Assembly (NCBI GenBank): GCA_021852225.1
Contig: JAJZOA010000033.1
Span: forward strand, 1-18,968
DNA: 18,968 nucleotides
Source of the DNA: Planctomycetota bacterium
GTDB lineage: Bacteria > Planctomycetota > Phycisphaerae > WQYP01
Reading direction: 5' to 3'
How positions within the stretch are numbered: position 1 is the stretch's first letter; each line of letters begins with the position of its first letter. The translations under genes were made by a program, and so were the position numbers. The notes below the pieces were generated by a model. That model made no database searches and was not told where the DNA came from. It worked only from the letters and a program-made list of their open reading frames with translations. Below, piece after piece: positions 1 through 18,872 of the stretch.

Positions 1-1710
1 GGTTCGATCGCCGGTGCCACCCTGACGCAGGATATGGCGTGGATCCCGCAGGGGGCGCTGACTTATAACAATGTCAACAATGTCACACTGTTGGATAATC
101 TCGGCAACGCCCAGAATCAAAACACCTCCAACACCTACAACAGCAATGGCGATGCCAGCAGTAGCACCAATGCCGCGGGCAGTGCGGTGAATACCGTGTT
201 TAACGCGTGGGGGCAGCCGGTGAGCTATACGGTCAGCCAGACCGCCAACGGCATCAACTTTACACAGACCGAAACGATCCAGTACGATGCGCTCGGCAGG
301 CCGTTGGGTGAATTCCAATCCGGCACGTTCCCCGGCGAAGCCAGCACAATTCAGACGCAACATACCTTGGTGTACGATGCCAATACCGGGAAAGTGATTC
401 AAGAGATCAACGAGATTGATGGCACCGATCCGGTTCTGTATGTCTACGCTCCAAACGGCGACGTGGTCGTGCAGAAGGCCGGGCCGAATGGGGCTTCGGT
501 CTATGCGTTGCAGGATGCCCAGGGTAGCACGGTCGCCATCACCGATGGCAACGGCAACGTTGTGGAACGTTACGTTTACGATGGACTGGGGAATGCCCAA
601 GCTCTGGATTCCAGCGGCAATCCGTATCCGGTGTCCACGACCAGCGGCGACGCCAACTGGCAGTTTCAAGAGCAATTCTCAGGCAGCACGTTTGATGCCA
701 GCACGCAGTTGCTAACCGCGGAAGGCACGCATTACGCATGGAACATTCTGTACCATGGCCAGATGTATGACGGCATCCCCGGCGTGTACGAAACGCCGCA
801 GGGGGCGTTTAATCCCGGTATCCAGAGCTTGCTGGCTCCGGAGCGCGGCGTGGTCCAGGTGGCGGGAAATCCGTACAATCCCGGCAGCGTGACAATGCCG
901 GCGTGGATTGAACGCATCGGGGGTGGTTTCCAGACCGTTGGCGGCGCTTTCGAGTCGCTGATCGGTGCCGGGACATCGGAGTTCGGCATCGGTATTCCGG
1001 TAGCCGCCAACGGTGTGGACAATTTCCAGGCAGGTCTGCGCGAGTTGTGGACCGGCCAGTACGTGCAGACATACACATCGCAGGCGATACAATGGGGCGC
1101 GGAAGAAGTTGGCGCGAGTCAATCGACTGCCTACAATATCGGCGAGGTTGGCAACGGTCTGATCGGCTTCGCTGGTACACCTGGCGCGGGGTTATTTAAC
1201 GACGCGAGCCAGGGAAGTTGGGCGATTAATGGGCTGCGAAGGCTGTTTGCGGTCGGGGCCGGTGACGTTGGGCCGCGTACGGTTTCGCTGAACGTTCTGA
1301 ATCCGGAGTTCGTCCCGGACGCCATTACGGTAAATAGGGCAACCGCATTCAATTTCCTCACCACATACGGTGGCCGGGACGAGGCGGAGGCGGTGCTCCA
1401 TATGCGGGGAATCGATTTTACCCGGCCAGTTAGCGTGGTAACGATCGCCCCTAGGACGGTCTTGCAGCAGTTTGTGAAATGGGGTAGGGCAACCGGGAGT
1501 TACTTTTCGCCGGTTGGGACCAATCCTCTTGAGGCCGGAATAGGGGATGCGGTCACCCGCGATCTCGTCCTGTATAGCAATAGCGAGCCAGTCACCGCAC
1601 TGCAGTCGGCCGCCTCCGATTTTCTTTATCCGGACGAGGTTAAAGTTCCGTGGACGGGCGGAGGAATCCAATTCTATGTTCCGAATAACGGGGCCTTTAT
1701 ACCGATCTAA
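1..1710 (+). CDS. RHS/YD-repeat protein, 3' part, with polymorphic-toxin-like C-terminus (5' end outside window)
   Basis: The frame is open from base 1, so the true start lies upstream; the ATG at 34 is internal. Residue numbers count from that ATG. Degenerate YD repeats are visible (YDALGRPL, YDANTGKV, YVYDGLGN), then a weak RHS-core end motif near residues 240-270 (YHGQMYDGIPGVYETPQGAFNPG instead of the usual GQxxDxETGLYYxxxRYYxPxxGR). A Gly/Ala-rich, helix-prone linker follows (about 290-400). The last 140 residues are a separate domain with motifs GSYFSPVGTNP, ALQSAASDF and GGGIQFYVPN. In RHS and other polymorphic toxins this tip is the effector, often delivered by contact or secretion. 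Its layout recalls the small ADP-ribosyltransferase-like or type-46-like toxin tips, but I cannot assign an enzymatic class. The DUF3601-like gene 62 bases downstream sits where an immunity gene would be. YD-repeat identity is firm; toxin activity is inferred. Confidence 0.82.
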   Translation, partial: GSIAGATLTQDMAWIPQGALTYNNVNNVTLLDNLGNAQNQNTSNTYNSNGDASSSTNAAGSAVNTVFNAWGQPVSYTVSQTANGINFTQTETIQYDALGRPLGEFQSGTFPGEASTIQTQHTLVYDANTGKVIQEINEIDGTDPVLYVYAPNGDVVVQKAGPNGASVYALQDAQGSTVAITDGNGNVVERYVYDGLGNAQALDSSGNPYPVSTTSGDANWQFQEQFSGSTFDASTQLLTAEGTHYAWNILYHGQMYDGIPGVYETPQGAFNPGIQSLLAPERGVVQVAGNPYNPGSVTMPAWIERIGGGFQTVGGAFESLIGAGTSEFGIGIPVAANGVDNFQAGLRELWTGQYVQTYTSQAIQWGAEEVGASQSTAYNIGEVGNGLIGFAGTPGAGLFNDASQGSWAINGLRRLFAVGAGDVGPRTVSLNVLNPEFVPDAITVNRATAFNFLTTYGGRDEAEAVLHMRGIDFTRPVSVVTIAPRTVLQQFVKWGRATGSYFSPVGTNPLEAGIGDAVTRDLVLYSNSEPVTALQSAASDFLYPDEVKVPWTGGGIQFYVPNNGAFIPI

Positions 1711-1772
1711 ATGGGGTGCGTGTTGGGAGTTGGGTTGAAAATGCGGGTACCGTTTGCATAGAAAGGGCCGAA

Positions 1773-2066
1773 ATGGATCCCAAAGAAAAATTCACAGCAT
1801 CAGATATGGCCTCCTCGGAGCGGTTGCGCATAGTGCGCGGCCAAAGATACCGCGTTACGCGAGCATTCACTGATGCGGATGGCGTCCTGCACCCAGTCGG
1901 TGAGGAGTGGACCTTCACTGCCAGTAAATTCTCGCGATTCGAGGACGAGTATGTTATCTCAGTGCGGTTCGACGCCGGTGGCACCATGTCATTCGGATTA
2001 ATTTGCCAAGAGGACCGGCAATACGGAATAATCCGAAATTTCAGCGAATACGTGGTGGCAATTTGA
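1773..2066 (+). CDS. DUF3601-like small protein, candidate immunity protein for the upstream RHS toxin
   Basis: A 97-residue cytosolic protein with no signal peptide or membrane segment. The central part (RGQRYRVTRAFTDADG, then HPVGEEWTF) and the end (an acidic QxxII-type segment followed by YVV) match my recollection of the DUF3601 family: K/R-G-x-x-Y-R-V, F-x-D-x-D-G, HPVGExWTF, and a C-terminal IIxNxxxY. The frame opens at a GTG at 1716, but ATG 1773 is preferred because GAAAGGG lies 5-11 bases before it. The gene follows the RHS stop by 62 bases on the same strand, the usual place for an immunity gene. Binding and neutralising the RHS C-terminal domain is therefore the likely role, but this rests on position. 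DUF3601 itself has no established biochemical function that I know of. Confidence 0.72.
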   Translation: MDPKEKFTASDMASSERLRIVRGQRYRVTRAFTDADGVLHPVGEEWTFTASKFSRFEDEYVISVRFDAGGTMSFGLICQEDRQYGIIRNFSEYVVAI

Positions 2067-2100
2067 CGCTCATGTTTATAGCGGATGTAGCGGCTATAGC

Positions 2101-2143
2101 GGCCCAGAGGATTGTGATTCGGCTGATGTTCATGATAATGGAG
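2101..2143 (+). repeat. Repeat family copy 0 (core only, diverged)
   Basis: This begins GGCCCAG, continues with ATTGTGA, and has CATGATAA at its 31st base, the same spacing as in the copies at 2231, 2440 and 2504. About 28 of the first 40 positions match the copy at 2231. Just before it lie three head-to-tail 9-mers of the form T(A/G)TAGCGG(A/C) at about 2079-2104. Beyond about 2143 the sequence no longer follows the longer units. Confidence 0.55.
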
Positions 2144-2230
2144 ACAACTGCAATCCCGGCGCGGGGCCTGTCGATTTAATCGGCACGGCATTTGCTATAT
2201 CCCCGGATATCCCCAGCGTCCCGGACTGGT

Positions 2231-2390
2231 GGCCCAGCCAATTGTGAAGGTCCTAATATGCATGATAAGGGATGATTGGGTGGTTGGCAAACGGCCGGGT
2301 GGTATGGATTTATGGCGATAAGTGTGATAATGCAGTATCCGAGGCCACGCCGGCGTAAGAAAAAACTCCGCCGTGCGCGCACTGCGGGCG
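2231..2390 (+). repeat. 160-bp dispersed repeat, full unit 1
   Basis: This 160-base unit aligns without a single gap to 2504-2663; by eye about 111 of 160 positions (69%) agree. Identity is highest at both ends (GGCCCAGC, AATTGTGAA, CTAATAT near the start; CC-TGCGCGC and GCGGGCG at the end) and weakest in the third quarter. Read from its first base the unit gives GPANCEGPNMHDKG followed by TGA at 2273-2275. The same frame then continues open as GGWQTAGW with MAIS. On the other strand the same bases begin with ATG and read MHIRTFTIGWA. Neither reading has a clear ribosome binding site. I treat it as a repeat of unknown nature, not as a gene. Confidence 0.7.
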
Positions 2391-2439
2391 TCAACGCCCG
2401 AAAGGCATTCCCAATTCACCGCGTCGAGAATGTTGAAGC

Positions 2440-2498
2440 GGCCCGGCTAATTGCGAAGGATCTAATATTGATGATAAGGGATGATTTGCTGGTTGTCT
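2440..2498 (+). repeat. Repeat family copy 2 (truncated unit)
   Basis: This carries the same 45-base core as units 1 and 3 (GGCCCGGCTAATTGCGAAGG, then TAATATTGATGATAAGGGA). It adds the first bases of the following segment (TTGCTGGTTGTCT) and is then cut off by unit 3, which begins at 2504. The core reads GPANCEGSNIDDKG and then TGA at 2482-2484, matching the stop position of the other copies, but in a different reading frame relative to the window. Confidence 0.65.
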
Positions 2499-2503
2499 GT
2501 AGC

Positions 2504-2663
2504 GGCCCAGCTAATTGTGAACGTGCTAATATTCATAATAACGGCTGATTGCACAGTTGTCTAACGGTGAGATGCTATGTAATTATGGCAATATGTGGAA
2601 TAATTTCAGCGTCTTGCGCCCGCTCTCGGGTGAAAAATTCCCGCCCTGCGCGCATCGCGGGCG
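2504..2663 (+). repeat. 160-bp dispersed repeat, full unit 3
   Basis: The partner of 2231-2390, of the same length with no indels. Its forward reading is GPANCERANIHNNG then TGA at 2546-2548. The same frame afterwards resembles unit 1 (CYVIMAICGI against WYGFMAISVI, and ARIAGADA against ARTAGVNA). The reverse strand starts with ATG and reads MNISTFTISWAA. Conservation of length without conservation of an unbroken frame fits a duplicated non-coding element or duplicated ends of a decayed gene. It is followed directly by GC-rich sequence and the transposase scrap. Confidence 0.7.
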
Positions 2664-2707: not shown

Positions 2708-2965
2708 TCAAGCCGCTTTGCGAACACGGATATCAACGATCGGCAGTCGCGGATCACCGCGATAATGTCGTCGTGCGATCTGGATTTCGAGGTCTGGCCC
2801 GTCACGGGTGCGGTAGGCCACCGGTTTCAACAGCGTTTTCCCGCAAAACGCTTCTTCAGGCGTCCTGAATTCCAATGCGCTATGCGGGCGGTGGGTGTTG
2901 TACCATGCCGCAAAAGAATCAGGCCATCGCTGAATGCCGCTGGTCGTCGCCGCCATGGGCGTCAA
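2708..2965 (-). pseudogene. Transposase (integrase-core, DDE type) C-terminal fragment
   Basis: This 85-codon stretch holds the hallmark end of the rve/DDE integrase core of IS3/IS481-like transposases: FAAWYNTHRPHSALEFRTPEEAF, near codons 18-40. A basic tail with RRHYRGDPRLPIVDIRVR follows. The catalytic Asp-Asp part, which would come first, is missing. Upstream in the same frame a stop (TAG, + coordinates 2975-2977) comes only three codons before the apparent TTG start, so nothing continues it. It is therefore a remnant of an insertion sequence and not an active element. Other transposase pieces may be hidden in the degenerate DNA at 2966-3518, but none can be identified by eye. Confidence 0.8.
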
Positions 2966-5445: not shown

Positions 5446-7128
5446 TTACCCGTCTGGCCAATGCGGAGCATTGGGTTGCTCGGCAAAAAAGGTGTGAATG
5501 GCTTTGGCCAGATGACTGTCATTTAATGGGAACGTTTTGCCCACTCTATCGGCATGCCACCAGCCGGGAAATAGTGCATGGCAGCCATGAGCTACGAATT
5601 TTCTCAGATCACTTAACGCTGCATGATAAAGCACCAGACTGTCCGGGGGTTGATTCGGAGCCGGATGCCACTCGAAAATTCCCCAGTTGTGGCTGTATTG
5701 GGCGATCATAGCGGGATTCAGACCGCCAAAACGAGTAATCCCGACATGCCCATTCTGCGGTAAATAGCCCGACCAGATGGTCGAAGCAGAAGACAAAGCC
5801 CGGCGGGCGCCGGCCGGCGCATCCCCCAGTAATTCCGCGGGAATCTGGTGGGCGTAAAGCAACTCCTTTGGTAAGCCCTGGGCAATGAGCAAACTGGCAA
5901 CATCCTGAACAAAATGGGCCACTTCACATTCACGGAAACCATACGCCGGACGCGACGGATTGCCTGCCGGGAAGGCATTGTTGTCGCCCTGATATGTCCA
6001 ATCCCATGCCTTCCACCATCGAGAATGATTTATAATGCGCGGCGCGTCAAAACCGCCGGCGGTAAAGCCCTTACCCGAATGTGGCATGGGATTAAAATTC
6101 GGATCAGTAATGGGGTCAGCAAATGTGTCTATATCCCAATAGGCCAAGGTCCAGGTGTGAAAATGTGTACCAAATATGTCGTTAAATGATTTACCCCTTC
6201 TGTTGGCGTCATCGGGCGCTGGATCATCATAAAAAGGGCTGACCCGGTGGCCATCAACTGAAATAAATGGTCCCGTGATTGACTCCGGTGCGCCCTGTCC
6301 GGCATAGCTGGCGCCGGGCGCATAAAGTCCGCGATGTCGCAGCCAGTCACGAAATTCCGCAATGGCAAATGGGCTGTAGTCGCCGAGATATTCGTTGCTG
6401 ACCGTGCCGCCGATGGCCAATTCTTCCTCGATGGCAAAATTGATGATGGCAATAACTCCGGGATACGCCCGCATAGCCGTTTTAATTTCTTCCGCCCAGC
6501 GCGTGGCTTTGCGGTGCATTTCCCCTCGAATTGCCAAAGCGTAACGGGAAGGCGTTACAACAAGTGTGTCTCTTCCCTGAGCGGGGCCGGGCATTCCGCG
6601 CCACGTTTTTCCATTCAGCCGCCATTGATAATTCCGCAGATCGCCGTTGGGGTTGGCCAGTCCCCCGTCATGGGTTTGCATGGCAAAAATCACACCACGA
6701 TGAATGTTATTTTCGTGAAACACCTTGAGCTGTCGCAAAAGCATCGGCAGATTTCCCGCAGCATAGATGGATGCGAATCCCAATTTGTTGTAATTATTGC
6801 CGGGACCGAATTGCTTTTTCATTTTCGCAATCTGCTCGCGATACTGGTCGTCCGTTGTGCTCTGGCGATCAAGCCCGCTTTCCCATATCGGCATGATGTA
6901 AAAGGAATTGCTGTGATCCGATTTTGGCAGGGCATTGGCGGAGCCAGTCGCATTATTTGTCGAAGCCATAATCGCGGTTACCGAATCGGCAGCAGCCGCA
7001 GAGCCAAAAGTATTGTTTATCCCGGCCACGGAGGTAAGTATCACTCCGGCCGAAGCCGCCAGGAGCTGGCGACGCGTCATATCTTGAGCGCCGGTGGTGC
7101 CTTGCGTGTTCTTCGTTTCATTCGCCAT
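5446..7128 (-). CDS. Tat-exported putative glycoside hydrolase (TIM-barrel, GH42-like features)
   Basis: A 560-residue protein from the chosen ATG. The frame extends 17 codons further upstream, but a strong Shine-Dalgarno (GAAAGGTGG) lies just before ATG 7128, and the extension would bury the Tat signal. Residues 17-36 (MTRRQLLAASAGVILTSVAG) are a twin-arginine signal, so the protein is folded before export. The mature part has features of clan-A-type hydrolases: FYIMPIWESG (77-86), VIAIINFAIEEELAIGG (225-241) with clustered Glu suitable for catalysis, then DYSPFAIAEFRDWLRHRGLY (250-269), a pattern seen in GH42-like beta-galactosidases and relatives. It is Trp-rich, as carbohydrate enzymes often are. 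I cannot assign a family or a substrate. It sits between the small exported protein (77-base gap) and the GH99-like enzyme. Confidence 0.72.
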   Translation of the reverse strand: MANETKNTQGTTGAQDMTRRQLLAASAGVILTSVAGINNTFGSAAAADSVTAIMASTNNATGSANALPKSDHSNSFYIMPIWESGLDRQSTTDDQYREQIAKMKKQFGPGNNYNKLGFASIYAAGNLPMLLRQLKVFHENNIHRGVIFAMQTHDGGLANPNGDLRNYQWRLNGKTWRGMPGPAQGRDTLVVTPSRYALAIRGEMHRKATRWAEEIKTAMRAYPGVIAIINFAIEEELAIGGTVSNEYLGDYSPFAIAEFRDWLRHRGLYAPGASYAGQGAPESITGPFISVDGHRVSPFYDDPAPDDANRRGKSFNDIFGTHFHTWTLAYWDIDTFADPITDPNFNPMPHSGKGFTAGGFDAPRIINHSRWWKAWDWTYQGDNNAFPAGNPSRPAYGFRECEVAHFVQDVASLLIAQGLPKELLYAHQIPAELLGDAPAGARRALSSASTIWSGYLPQNGHVGITRFGGLNPAMIAQYSHNWGIFEWHPAPNQPPDSLVLYHAALSDLRKFVAHGCHALFPGWWHADRVGKTFPLNDSHLAKAIHTFFAEQPNAPHWPDG

Positions 7129-14330: not shown

Positions 14331-17300
14331 TCAGCGTCCGGCAATTCTCCGTCGTGCCAGCAGCGCCAACCCACCAACAGCAATAATCGCCAGTGCCGCG
14401 GGTTCAGGCGTAGACGCCGGTGTAACCGTGAAACTTGCCTGCGGCGTATTGAATTCAAGCTGAACGGCAAAGGGATTGGTACCGGGGACGATGTTGCCGA
14501 TGGAGAACGTCGTCGCACCGCCGCCCGCCAGGCTGCTGAAATCAAACGTGTTGGTAGAGCCTGCATCGCCGCCGAAACCCGTATATGTGGTACCGTCCAC
14601 GGTTATCGTCAGGTTGTCATAGCCGGATCGGAACGCATCAATTTTTGTAAACAATGCCCCGGATGTCATGGTATAAACCAGCGTTTCCCCGGCCGGATCG
14701 ATCCAGCTTCCGCTGTAAACGTTGCTGAAACTTTCGCCGCCGTTGCCAAGGGCCGTGCCTATTTTCGCTGTGCCCGGACTGCCGCCGCCGCCGGGCGTGA
14801 ATGCGAAGTTGGACAAAATAACTTCGTTGGGCTGACTGGCACCGGGACCATAGCTGACATTAAAGCTTCCAAAGCCATCAGTCGTTTCCACCGTTCCGCC
14901 GGAAATCGCGTTGCTGAAACTGCCGGTGATTCCGCCGGTGGCCTTAATGATGGTGAAAGAGTCCCCGGATGTGATGGTTTTCTGGAAATTATTAACGAAT
15001 TGCACACCAAGCTGGCCGCCAGCGGTCATAGTCCCGCCGATCACCAGGTAATCGTAACCGTTGCTGGCGGTACCCTGGCCGGTACCCCCAATATGGAAAT
15101 CAGTAGATGCGTTTGAGCTTCCGGAGTAATTATTGACGATAGTAAAAACACCGGCCACCCCGCTAAGTCCGCCACCGTATTGCGGATTGCCGGGACCAAA
15201 ACTTCCACCCGTGTTATAAAAGCTTCCGGAAAAACTTCCGCCGTCGCCACCGCCGAATCCATATCCTCCACCCAGAGTAAAATTGCCGCCAAATAGAACG
15301 CCGCCACCACCACCACCACCACCACCGCCACCACCGCCAAAATAAGTGACGCCCGCAGTTTGGGTGTAATTGGTATGCACGTAAAGCGTCCCGCCGTTGG
15401 TCGCCTCCAGCGTACCTGAATTCGTGACCGTGCCGTAAATATTCAGCGTCTGGCCATTTACATCGGCATCAATCGTGCCGGTGTTGACCAGGCCGACATT
15501 GTAATTTCCGGCAGGATCTCCAATCGTGCCGGCACCCTGAATAATACTGTTGTTGGTCAGTGAATCGGTGCCCTGGAAATCGGCACCCTGCAATAGAGCG
15601 GCACTCCCGTTGTTATCATTCAGTTGAAGGACGCCACTGCCGTTCAGCACGACATTTCCTGAAATGGACAGTAGTTCACCGCTGTGAAAAATCATGGTGC
15701 CGGAATTGTTGATGGTTCCTTTGAGCGTCAGTCCGCCACTGTAGATGCCGCTGTTTAATGCGTTTAAATTTCCGTTCAGCGTCACTGGCGTCGTGGTTCC
15801 ATCCAGCGTGCCGGAGTTTGCGTAAATTTGGGAATTTGCATCGGTGGTCAGCGTTCCGCCCTGCACGATACCGCCATTAAGCGCTACACTTCCGCCGCCG
15901 GTGGCCGACAGGCTGCCACCCAGAATCGTGGCCCGGTCAAGATTCAGTACCGAGCCGGTGCCGGAGGCCAGAATGTTGCCACTGCTGTTGGCAATCAGAC
16001 TGCCGCCAAGGTCCAGAGTAGCGCCACCGGTGGCCTCAAGCGTGCCGGAATTGGTAATACCGCTGTTTCCGCCATTGGAATAGATGTAAAGGGTTGCACC
16101 GCTGACATTTGCATTGACCGTGCCGGAATTATTTAACAGGAAGCTGTTGGAAAAGCCGACGATACGGCCCGCTCCGGAAATAGTCGCTTGGTTGGTAAGC
16201 GTACTGTTAGCATCGTACCCTTCCAAATAACTTCCCGAAGCCATGATTATACCGCCTGAGCCGGAAAGCGTCGTGGCACCGCGAAAATCAACGGTGCCCG
16301 CGCCATAGCCGCCGCCAGCCGGGAGCGTGGAAAGCGATCCATCAAGCGTGATATTTCCGGAAAGATCGAGTGTGTCCGACGGGTTGACGGAAAAATTCGA
16401 TGCCAGCGTCAGAGGCGAAACCGACCCATCGAATCGCGTCGTCTGATAGTGGCCCGAACCAAAAATCTTAATGACACCACCCGCCACCTCGTTTAACGTT
16501 CCCCCCTGCACTTGTGACCCGTTCAATGCCACAACCGAGCCGGTGCCGCTGGCCAGTATGGTGCCACCCCCATCGCCGATAATGGCGTTGGAGGCAAATG
16601 CCAACGTGCCGCCGTTAGTCGCCTCGAGTGTGCCGGTGTTGGTGAAACTGTTCGCCCCACCCAGCAGAAGTGTCTTGCCGGAAGCGTTGGCATCCACGGT
16701 GCCGGAATTCGCGAAACTGTTAAGATCAAAATTCGTCGCGCTGGAATTTCCCACCGTGCCCGAACCTTGAACTGTTCCTTGATTAATCAGCGAATCACTG
16801 ATGTTTGTTGGGCTGCCACCCAGAAAAGCCGTATTTCCGCCATTGTCGGCAAGGGTAATCGTTCCCTTGCCGGCAATGGTCGTAGGCCCGTTGATGTACA
16901 GCCAGGTGGCGTCACCGGTGCTGGTAATGTTGATCTGCCCGTTATTGGTAATAGTTCCCTGCAGCGTCAGCGAATACGCCGCCGTGGCGGATCCGCTGTC
17001 GGCCACATTAATTGTTGAGTTATTCGTCAGCCCGCCGGTGGGCGTGCCATCCAGAGTGGCCGAGGTAGCCACGAAGGACCCATTGCCCGCCAGGGAACCT
17101 CCGCTAACCGTAATGGCGAACAACTGAACCGTTGTGCCCGAATCGGCCTGAATTGTGCCGCCACCGTTGGCCAGCGGCCCTGTCCCGGTAAATTCCAGTG
17201 AACCATTTTGCACTTCCACCAATCCGGCATTGGTTAAATCGGCGGCATAAAGAAAACTGCTGCCTGTGGTGTTCATATGGCCGCCAGTCAGGATGTCAAT

Positions 17301-18872
17301 GGAATCGTTGAGATTTGAGGCGGCATTCTGATTTAATGTTCCGCCGTCGTACACGGTGATGGTTCCACCATACAGATCCGCATTGGTGGTCAGGGTTAAA
17401 GTACCGGTGCCAGCAGCGCCGGTCGCGGTGCCGCCGACAAAAATGGAGTTTGCACTTATAGTCCCATCAGAAGTTACATTTCCGTTAGAACCGGCTTGCG
17501 CGCCGATAAACATTTGATTGATTGCGACATCGGCCCCGGTACCTAAAGTCAGACTGCCGCTGCCGGTATTCCCGACAATCAGATTATTGTTGGGGACATC
17601 CAGAGTTTGTCCCGACCCCAGCGAAAGACTTGTCCCCAGCGGACCGCCGGTGTCAATGATCAGGTCTGAATTGGTGATGCTTAATTTACCACCGGTGAAC
17701 ACAATAGTTCCGCCGCCGTTGGTCAGGGCACCGGTATCCAGTTCGCCGCCGGAAATGGTCAATGAAGCTCCAGTGGCGACATTTGTGGTGCCGGAAATGG
17801 TCAATATCTGGCCGGGAACGGTTTGCGGGGTCGCGCCGGTATATGGAACGTATGTAGTGGAATTCAGCGTGACCGCCGAGCCGAGCAGTCCGCCTCCGCC
17901 AACGGTTAAATTGCTGTTGGTTAAATCCAGTGTGCCGCCGGCAAAATTCAGCGTGCCGGAATTGATGATCGATGCGGTCCTTAGTTCTCCACTGTTTAAA
18001 GTGACCGTGGATCCGCTGTAAATTGTGGTCGCACCGGTGACCTGTACGCCATAGGAGCTGCTTCCATACAGGCCATTGCTGCCGTTAATAAGCAATGTGC
18101 CCGCACCACCGCCGCCGATGGAGCTGCCGCCCACATACAGATTTCCGGTCACATTTAGGCCCGATGCGCTTCCGCCGCCACTGCATCCTCCGACATTGCT
18201 CATTTCAATATCTACTTTGCCAATCGAACCGGTCAGCGCGGCAATATCCACATCCCCACCGACGCTGGCGTAACCCGAGTTAACGGTTAAGGTGCCATTG
18301 CCGCCATAGCCGACAGCCATCGATCCGGAAAGCCGCAAGGCGTTACCGCCAAAACTGGTGCCCGGGTTGCCAATGTTCATAACGCCCACACTGCCGCTGC
18401 TTTCGCCAATGGTGGCGTTCACACCGGAAACCGGTTCAAATCCGCTGGTTCCCAGGGTTAAGGTTGCCGCAGTGTCGGTGGCGCTATCGCCGACAACAAG
18501 CGATTCATTTCCTGAACCGATTCCACCTGTTCCACTAAGGGTGTAAATATATCCACCGGACGCCAGGCTGACGGTGTTGTTATCCACAAGCATCTGGCTG
18601 GAATAGGTGGCGGCACCAAGCGATACGGTATAGGCGCTTCCCGTACCAAGATCGAACACCGCGATATTCGCCGCCGTCGGCACGCTGCCCGTGCTCCAGT
18701 TGCCGGTGGTTTGAAACATGCCATTGCCCGCATTGCCGGTCCAGTTATCGGGTGTCGGCGGCGTCACCGACGAGGCGATGGCCGGTCCGGAAATTGCAAT
18801 TGCGGCGGCGAGGCTTAATAAACCAAGGCGACGGCCGGAAATTTCGGATTTAAACGACAAGTCGGTTCGCAT
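14331..18872 (-). CDS. Giant secreted beta-repeat protein with PEP-CTERM sorting signal
   Basis: A 1,513-residue surface or matrix protein. ATG 18872 follows AAAGGAG by five bases. Residues 1-34 form a Sec signal peptide (two Arg, then LGLLSLAAAIAISGPAIAS). A NWTGNAGNGMFQTTGNWSTG segment and long, low-complexity Gly/Thr/Ser/Asn repeats follow: dozens of units of the kind GTLNFAGGTLDLTNSN, NSGTLEATNGGTL or ITNNGQINIT. They predict a right-handed beta-helix of the sort found in autotransporter passenger proteins. A 13-glycine run lies at about residues 1178-1190. Near 1340-1400, FTIIKATGGITGSF resembles the distal strand unit common in such proteins. The end (1488-1513) is PEP-CTERM: PEP at 1489-1491, a hydrophobic helix (AALAIIAVGGLALLA) and RRR. 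Exosortase would cleave there. No exosortase is in the window. Confidence 0.9.
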   Translation of the reverse strand: MRTDLSFKSEISGRRLGLLSLAAAIAISGPAIASSVTPPTPDNWTGNAGNGMFQTTGNWSTGSVPTAANIAVFDLGTGSAYTVSLGAATYSSQMLVDNNTVSLASGGYIYTLSGTGGIGSGNESLVVGDSATDTAATLTLGTSGFEPVSGVNATIGESSGSVGVMNIGNPGTSFGGNALRLSGSMAVGYGGNGTLTVNSGYASVGGDVDIAALTGSIGKVDIEMSNVGGCSGGGSASGLNVTGNLYVGGSSIGGGGAGTLLINGSNGLYGSSSYGVQVTGATTIYSGSTVTLNSGELRTASIINSGTLNFAGGTLDLTNSNLTVGGGGLLGSAVTLNSTTYVPYTGATPQTVPGQILTISGTTNVATGASLTISGGELDTGALTNGGGTIVFTGGKLSITNSDLIIDTGGPLGTSLSLGSGQTLDVPNNNLIVGNTGSGSLTLGTGADVAINQMFIGAQAGSNGNVTSDGTISANSIFVGGTATGAAGTGTLTLTTNADLYGGTITVYDGGTLNQNAASNLNDSIDILTGGHMNTTGSSFLYAADLTNAGLVEVQNGSLEFTGTGPLANGGGTIQADSGTTVQLFAITVSGGSLAGNGSFVATSATLDGTPTGGLTNNSTINVADSGSATAAYSLTLQGTITNNGQINITSTGDATWLYINGPTTIAGKGTITLADNGGNTAFLGGSPTNISDSLINQGTVQGSGTVGNSSATNFDLNSFANSGTVDANASGKTLLLGGANSFTNTGTLEATNGGTLAFASNAIIGDGGGTILASGTGSVVALNGSQVQGGTLNEVAGGVIKIFGSGHYQTTRFDGSVSPLTLASNFSVNPSDTLDLSGNITLDGSLSTLPAGGGYGAGTVDFRGATTLSGSGGIIMASGSYLEGYDANSTLTNQATISGAGRIVGFSNSFLLNNSGTVNANVSGATLYIYSNGGNSGITNSGTLEATGGATLDLGGSLIANSSGNILASGTGSVLNLDRATILGGSLSATGGGSVALNGGIVQGGTLTTDANSQIYANSGTLDGTTTPVTLNGNLNALNSGIYSGGLTLKGTINNSGTMIFHSGELLSISGNVVLNGSGVLQLNDNNGSAALLQGADFQGTDSLTNNSIIQGAGTIGDPAGNYNVGLVNTGTIDADVNGQTLNIYGTVTNSGTLEATNGGTLYVHTNYTQTAGVTYFGGGGGGGGGGGGGVLFGGNFTLGGGYGFGGGDGGSFSGSFYNTGGSFGPGNPQYGGGLSGVAGVFTIVNNYSGSSNASTDFHIGGTGQGTASNGYDYLVIGGTMTAGGQLGVQFVNNFQKTITSGDSFTIIKATGGITGSFSNAISGGTVETTDGFGSFNVSYGPGASQPNEVILSNFAFTPGGGGSPGTAKIGTALGNGGESFSNVYSGSWIDPAGETLVYTMTSGALFTKIDAFRSGYDNLTITVDGTTYTGFGGDAGSTNTFDFSSLAGGGATTFSIGNIVPGTNPFAVQLEFNTPQASFTVTPASTPEPAALAIIAVGGLALLARRRIAGR
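15300..15338 (-). repeat. Trinucleotide (GGT/GGC) repeat encoding 13 glycines
   Basis: Thirteen consecutive Gly codons lie inside the PEP-CTERM gene. Seven successive GGT codons form the core, with GGC codons around it. Slippage by one unit would change length but not frame. Another Gly-rich stretch follows in the protein (GGGYGFGGGDGG). Confidence 0.85.

Follow-up and report, generated by a model that had tools for sequence, protein, structure and literature searches.

A polymorphic RHS protein whose open frame crosses the left end of the window (the whole stretch of 18,968 nucleotides of Planctomycetota DNA analysed here) probably ends in the toxic half of a toxin–immunity pair, in which a Tse6/Tne1-like tip would be blocked by a partner of the DUF3601 kind encoded behind it (Table 1). 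The tip is a member of the Ntox46/Tse6-like NADase family and appears to be a toxin that destroys the NAD of a rival. The original prediction had described a distinct C-terminal module on the RHS protein, and this description holds: an RHS repeat (residues 172-199 of the open frame; PF05593, 25.9 bits; cut-off 22) lies upstream of a separate module made up of the final 147 residues, and the Ntox46 profile (PF15538; curated cut-off 25) matches the full frame with 31.3 bits and the tip alone with 32.5 bits. The three peptides highlighted in the tip, GSYFSPVGTNP, ALQSAASDF and GGGIQFYVPN, are all found in this frame.

Table 1. Features of the window; positions are counted from its first nucleotide.
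Feature	Position	Strand	Remarks
RHS protein	1..1710	+	open frame; left end outside window; PF05593 above cut-off
End of RHS core	720-910		divergent
C-terminal toxin tip, Ntox46/Tse6-like NAD(P)+ glycohydrolase domain	1267..1710	+	
DUF3601-like protein, candidate cognate immunity	1773..2066	+	97 aa; ATG start
Arg55-Phe56-Glu57-Asp58 codons, predicted hairpin turn of partner	1935..1946	+	strands 45-54 and 59-65 in model
Degenerate direct repeat, four copies	2094-2604		
Insertion-sequence transposase fragment	2711-2965	-	rve_3 below cut-off
Repetitive surface-type protein	14331-18872	-	1513 residues

The tip had been called uncharacterised, which proved wrong, since Pfam, sequence and fold all identify it as a known Tse6-like Ntox46 domain. 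It matches Tse6 by sequence, and a comparison of its predicted structure with toxin folds, as had been suggested, ranks Tse6 first, followed by Rhs1-CT, fungal NADases and Tne2; the model, which is of moderate confidence only, has a TNT-like NADase fold. Three residues of the tip, Gln68, Asp118 and Gln135, are invariant in all four rows of our Ntox46 alignment (A5) and align with the active-site residues of Tse6, namely Gln333, Asp396 and a C-terminal glutamine. The C-terminal glutamine is described in the excerpted text of PMC10539506. For Ntox46, the motif [KR]STxxPxxDxx[ST] together with a Q is given in the relevant extract of Zhang et al. 2012 (PMC3482391). At this site the window tip reads ALQSAASDFLYP, in which the S, one Asp and the Gln residues are kept but the [KR] and the T are not; the related tip P0014 reads ALRSTASDF.

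The candidate partner gene begins 62 bases past the RHS stop codon on the same strand. Its ATG at 1773 is favoured over a longer GTG start at 1716, because the related proteins P0002, P0003, P0004, P0006 and P0007 start at the same Met; P0003, a close relative, is named as a Phycisphaerae bacterium protein, which suggests a host among the Planctomycetota. The ribosome binding site, said to be good, proved to match in part only when the sequence ahead of the ATG, AGAAAGGGCCGAA, was judged by eye. The earlier assignment to the DUF3601 kind stands, with PF12208 scoring 21.9 bits, just below the curated cut-off of 22.3, and the protein is therefore named DUF3601-like here; L002, a relative in the same alignment, reaches 34.9 bits. 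The predicted structure shares the fold of a solved DUF3601 relative, the integron cassette protein VCH_CASS4 (3G1J). DUF3601 is named in no paper found in the literature searched. As a side observation, the DUF3601 profile also hits the repeats of major vault protein over about 23 residues (E 6.5e-5 at best), while a global fold match between the DUF3601-like protein and major vault protein was not found.

The arrangement of a toxin tip followed by a candidate immunity gene, which had been read from the window, recurs elsewhere. Scanning genome contigs with the DUF3601 alignment gave at least 596 matching stretches and at least one confirmed locus, L001, in an independent Planctomycetota MAG (genome G001). 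There, a DUF3601 gene (5920-6243) starts 46 bases behind a protein bearing a tip that is 41% identical to that of the window. In frames immediately 5', RHS repeats are detected with scores of 96.2 and 115.2 bits. Both L001 proteins were recognised through alignments built here rather than through Pfam: the tip scores 20.1 bits against Ntox46 (cut-off 25), and the partner has no Pfam match at E 0.1. A search with the tip retrieved two protein records. P0013 has a tip identical to that of the window behind a different upstream part. P0014 has a tip that is 66% identical and comes from the same source as the DUF3601 protein P0008, each from a 2336-base contig; RHS repeats were not detected in this short record. 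The tail of P0014 could, in another frame, encode the first residues of P0008 (15/15, to the end of the record), while shuffled P0008 starts gave at most 8 matches in the tail only (300 shuffles) and at most 9 in the whole P0014 record (150 shuffles). We infer that P0014 and P0008 form a third pair of tip and DUF3601 protein. Thus, a small same-strand gene lies directly 3' of the toxin in the window, in L001 and, by this inference, in P0014/P0008. Compared among the three pairs, protein identity is 66, 41 and 45% for the tips and 64, 44 and 36% for the candidate immunities, so that tips and partners diverge roughly in step.

Recurrence bears on the possibility that the Tse6-like NADase tip has its cognate immunity elsewhere and that the DUF3601 gene beside it is a passenger, either unrelated or orphaned, such as a mobile gene that stands alone or an orphan immunity directed at a different toxin. 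Such a passenger would be in keeping with the integron-cassette origin of the solved relative, with an insertion-sequence fragment about 0.65 kb 3' of the DUF3601-like gene (rve_3, 25.7 bits; cut-off 26.5), and with DUF3601 relatives at six loci that have no Ntox46 neighbour. However, the order of tip and gene is retained at 41-66% protein identity, with both partners diverging similarly, and the paired members have a branch and a loop of the family in common, which makes a passenger unlikely.

This branch emerges from a tree of 17 DUF3601 proteins, in which 11 proteins with the motif F-S-R-F-[ED]-D-E split from six without it at a support of 93/92, in a topology with seven of 14 inner branches open and two long rows. 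All three paired members (window, L001 and P0008) fall on the FSR side, where genomic context is readable for three of the 11 proteins and all three are paired. On the other side, context was read for four of six proteins, all unpaired; two further proteins outside the tree, from L024 and L025 (found using a non-FSR query), also lack the Arg, so that none of six non-FSR loci is paired. The difference gives a Fisher p of 0.012 (3/3 vs 0/6), or 0.029 if only the tree is counted (3/3 vs 0/4), with 2/2 vs 0/6 as the fairer count, since the window is the index case. All 11 proteins of the FSR branch have Arg55, whereas the residue at this position in the six others is Pro (five proteins) or His (one).

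The co-occurrence search proposed earlier came out in two parts, with three pairs in the FSR branch and six non-FSR loci (L002, L006, L014, L015, L024 and L025) at which Ntox46 was not found in the stretches read. An immunity function for the whole of DUF3601, as the original prediction had envisaged, does not fit these loci; where context is known, pairing is limited to proteins that carry the FSR loop. Within the family, to which VCH_CASS4 belongs, the other proteins compared lack this loop and have no Ntox46 neighbour where context was read, whereas the branch of the window has F-S-R-F-[ED]-D-E. At L025 (3803-4850), two DUF3601-like proteins with a leading hydrophobic segment occur in tandem; the record is from Fusobacterium vincentii and labelled as a plasmid, yet is 2.1 Mb long.

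According to the mechanism that we propose, the tip would consume NAD(P)+ and thereby kill or arrest the recipient bacterium. The partner, an SH3-like barrel of the DUF3601 kind, would remain in the producer's cytoplasm, where it would bind the tip and block its active site. That it serves as the immunity protein has good support from recurrence, though not proof, and neutralisation and binding are putative. Tsi6, Tni2 and RhsI1 have unrelated folds and each put a basic residue into the active site of an NADase (Lys62, Arg153 and His131, respectively), as described in the excerpted text of PMC10539506. Since basic residues serve in these immunities and Arg55 of the hairpin is restricted to the FSR branch, the FSRFEDE hairpin is proposed to enter the NAD cleft as the blocking element, with Arg55 as the basic residue that would be inserted into the active site of the tip. 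By this analogy, an inhibitory role of the hairpin and Arg55 is conceivable but tentative, and Arg55 might instead be structural. A wider reading, which we consider improbable, is that DUF3601 represents a mobile SH3-barrel scaffold, mostly of orphan antidotes to ADP-ribosyl-cleaving toxins (integron-cassette members included), and that the branch of the window has been locked to Tse6-like tips by an arginine hairpin mimicking the cationic intermediate of the reaction. If the proposed pairing is true, a function would be gained for one branch of DUF3601, a family without an assigned function, and another immunity fold would join those that block NADase toxins. The solved relative 3G1J and the single residue Arg55 make the proposal testable.

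The Tsi6 fold is helical. It differs from the DUF3601 SH3-like barrel of the partner in the window, and the Pseudomonas system it belongs to, Tse6-Tsi6 (Tne1-Tni1; PDB 4ZV0), also differs in its carrier, which is a non-Rhs PAAR protein for Tse6 and an RHS protein in the window, as far as the excerpted text of PMC10539506 describes it. The same excerpts present Rhs1-RhsI1 of Serratia (PDB 6XTD), in which the toxin is more distant and RhsI1 has another fold; Tne5 of the Pluralibacter pair Tne5-Tni5 is likewise more distant from the window tip than Tse6 (excerpts of PMC13285283). The RHS proteins of Serratia Rhs1 and Pluralibacter Tne5 are tied to the T6SS in these excerpts (PMC10539506, PMC13285283), whereas that of the window is known without its start. 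RHS carriers had already been given for Ntox46 in the 2012 survey, which, in the extract at hand, lists the family without an immunity family and with hosts among proteobacteria and Bacteroidetes only (PMC3482391). The pair described here adds a candidate immunity and the Planctomycetota to this picture.

In two overlapping samples of Planctomycetota, DUF3601 (alignment A3) was detected in at least 2/392 and at least 3/397 genomes, and Ntox46 (alignment A5) in at least 4/392 and at least 6/397, or in at least four and at least eight genomes when the samples are combined; absences are incomplete, because in many genomes scoring covered only the top 12 (A3) or 5 (A5) candidates of a first look. 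Among the candidates scored, G001 alone has both families, which lie side by side there. At eight other Ntox46 loci (seven planctomycete, one on a Nostoc plasmid), DUF3601 was not found in the stretches read, which extend at least 1.2 kb beyond the toxin frame; one of them, in G406, was read over a longer stretch, as its frame ran past the first one. The pairing therefore seems confined to close relatives of the window tip. An 869-residue frame of G406 (L026, 1295-3901) has its Ntox46-like domain close to the start and not at the end. Small genes at L008 (1842-2132) and L009 (1842-2162) each overlap the stop of a planctomycete Ntox46 protein, have an RWP motif in common and are candidate immunity genes of another kind.

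The state of the locus raises the question of whether the pair could be a decayed remnant, i.e., a pseudogene cassette with an undelivered or inactive RHS tip. By eye, the RHS core of the window diverges at its end and does not show the N-x-Y-x-Y...DPxG ending present in L001, so that the usual self-cleavage signal may be missing. In addition, the start of the RHS gene lies outside the window, the RHS coding region of L001 is broken across several frames, and repeats and the insertion-sequence fragment come after the pair. Against this, the frames of tip and partner are intact in the window and the expected active-site residues are present, and the identical tip of P0013 follows a different upstream part. 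We regard decay as very unlikely and a working toxin–immunity pair as the better reading of the locus.

Several other features of the window can be recorded. Directly behind the candidate immunity gene lie four degenerate copies of a direct repeat of 48-56 bases, which are 65-84% identical to reference copies. Compared with Rfam, the window gave no match that reached the gathering score. Towards its right end, the repetitive surface-type protein, judged by eye, contains a run of glycines and has a PEP-CTERM-like tail at its C-terminus.
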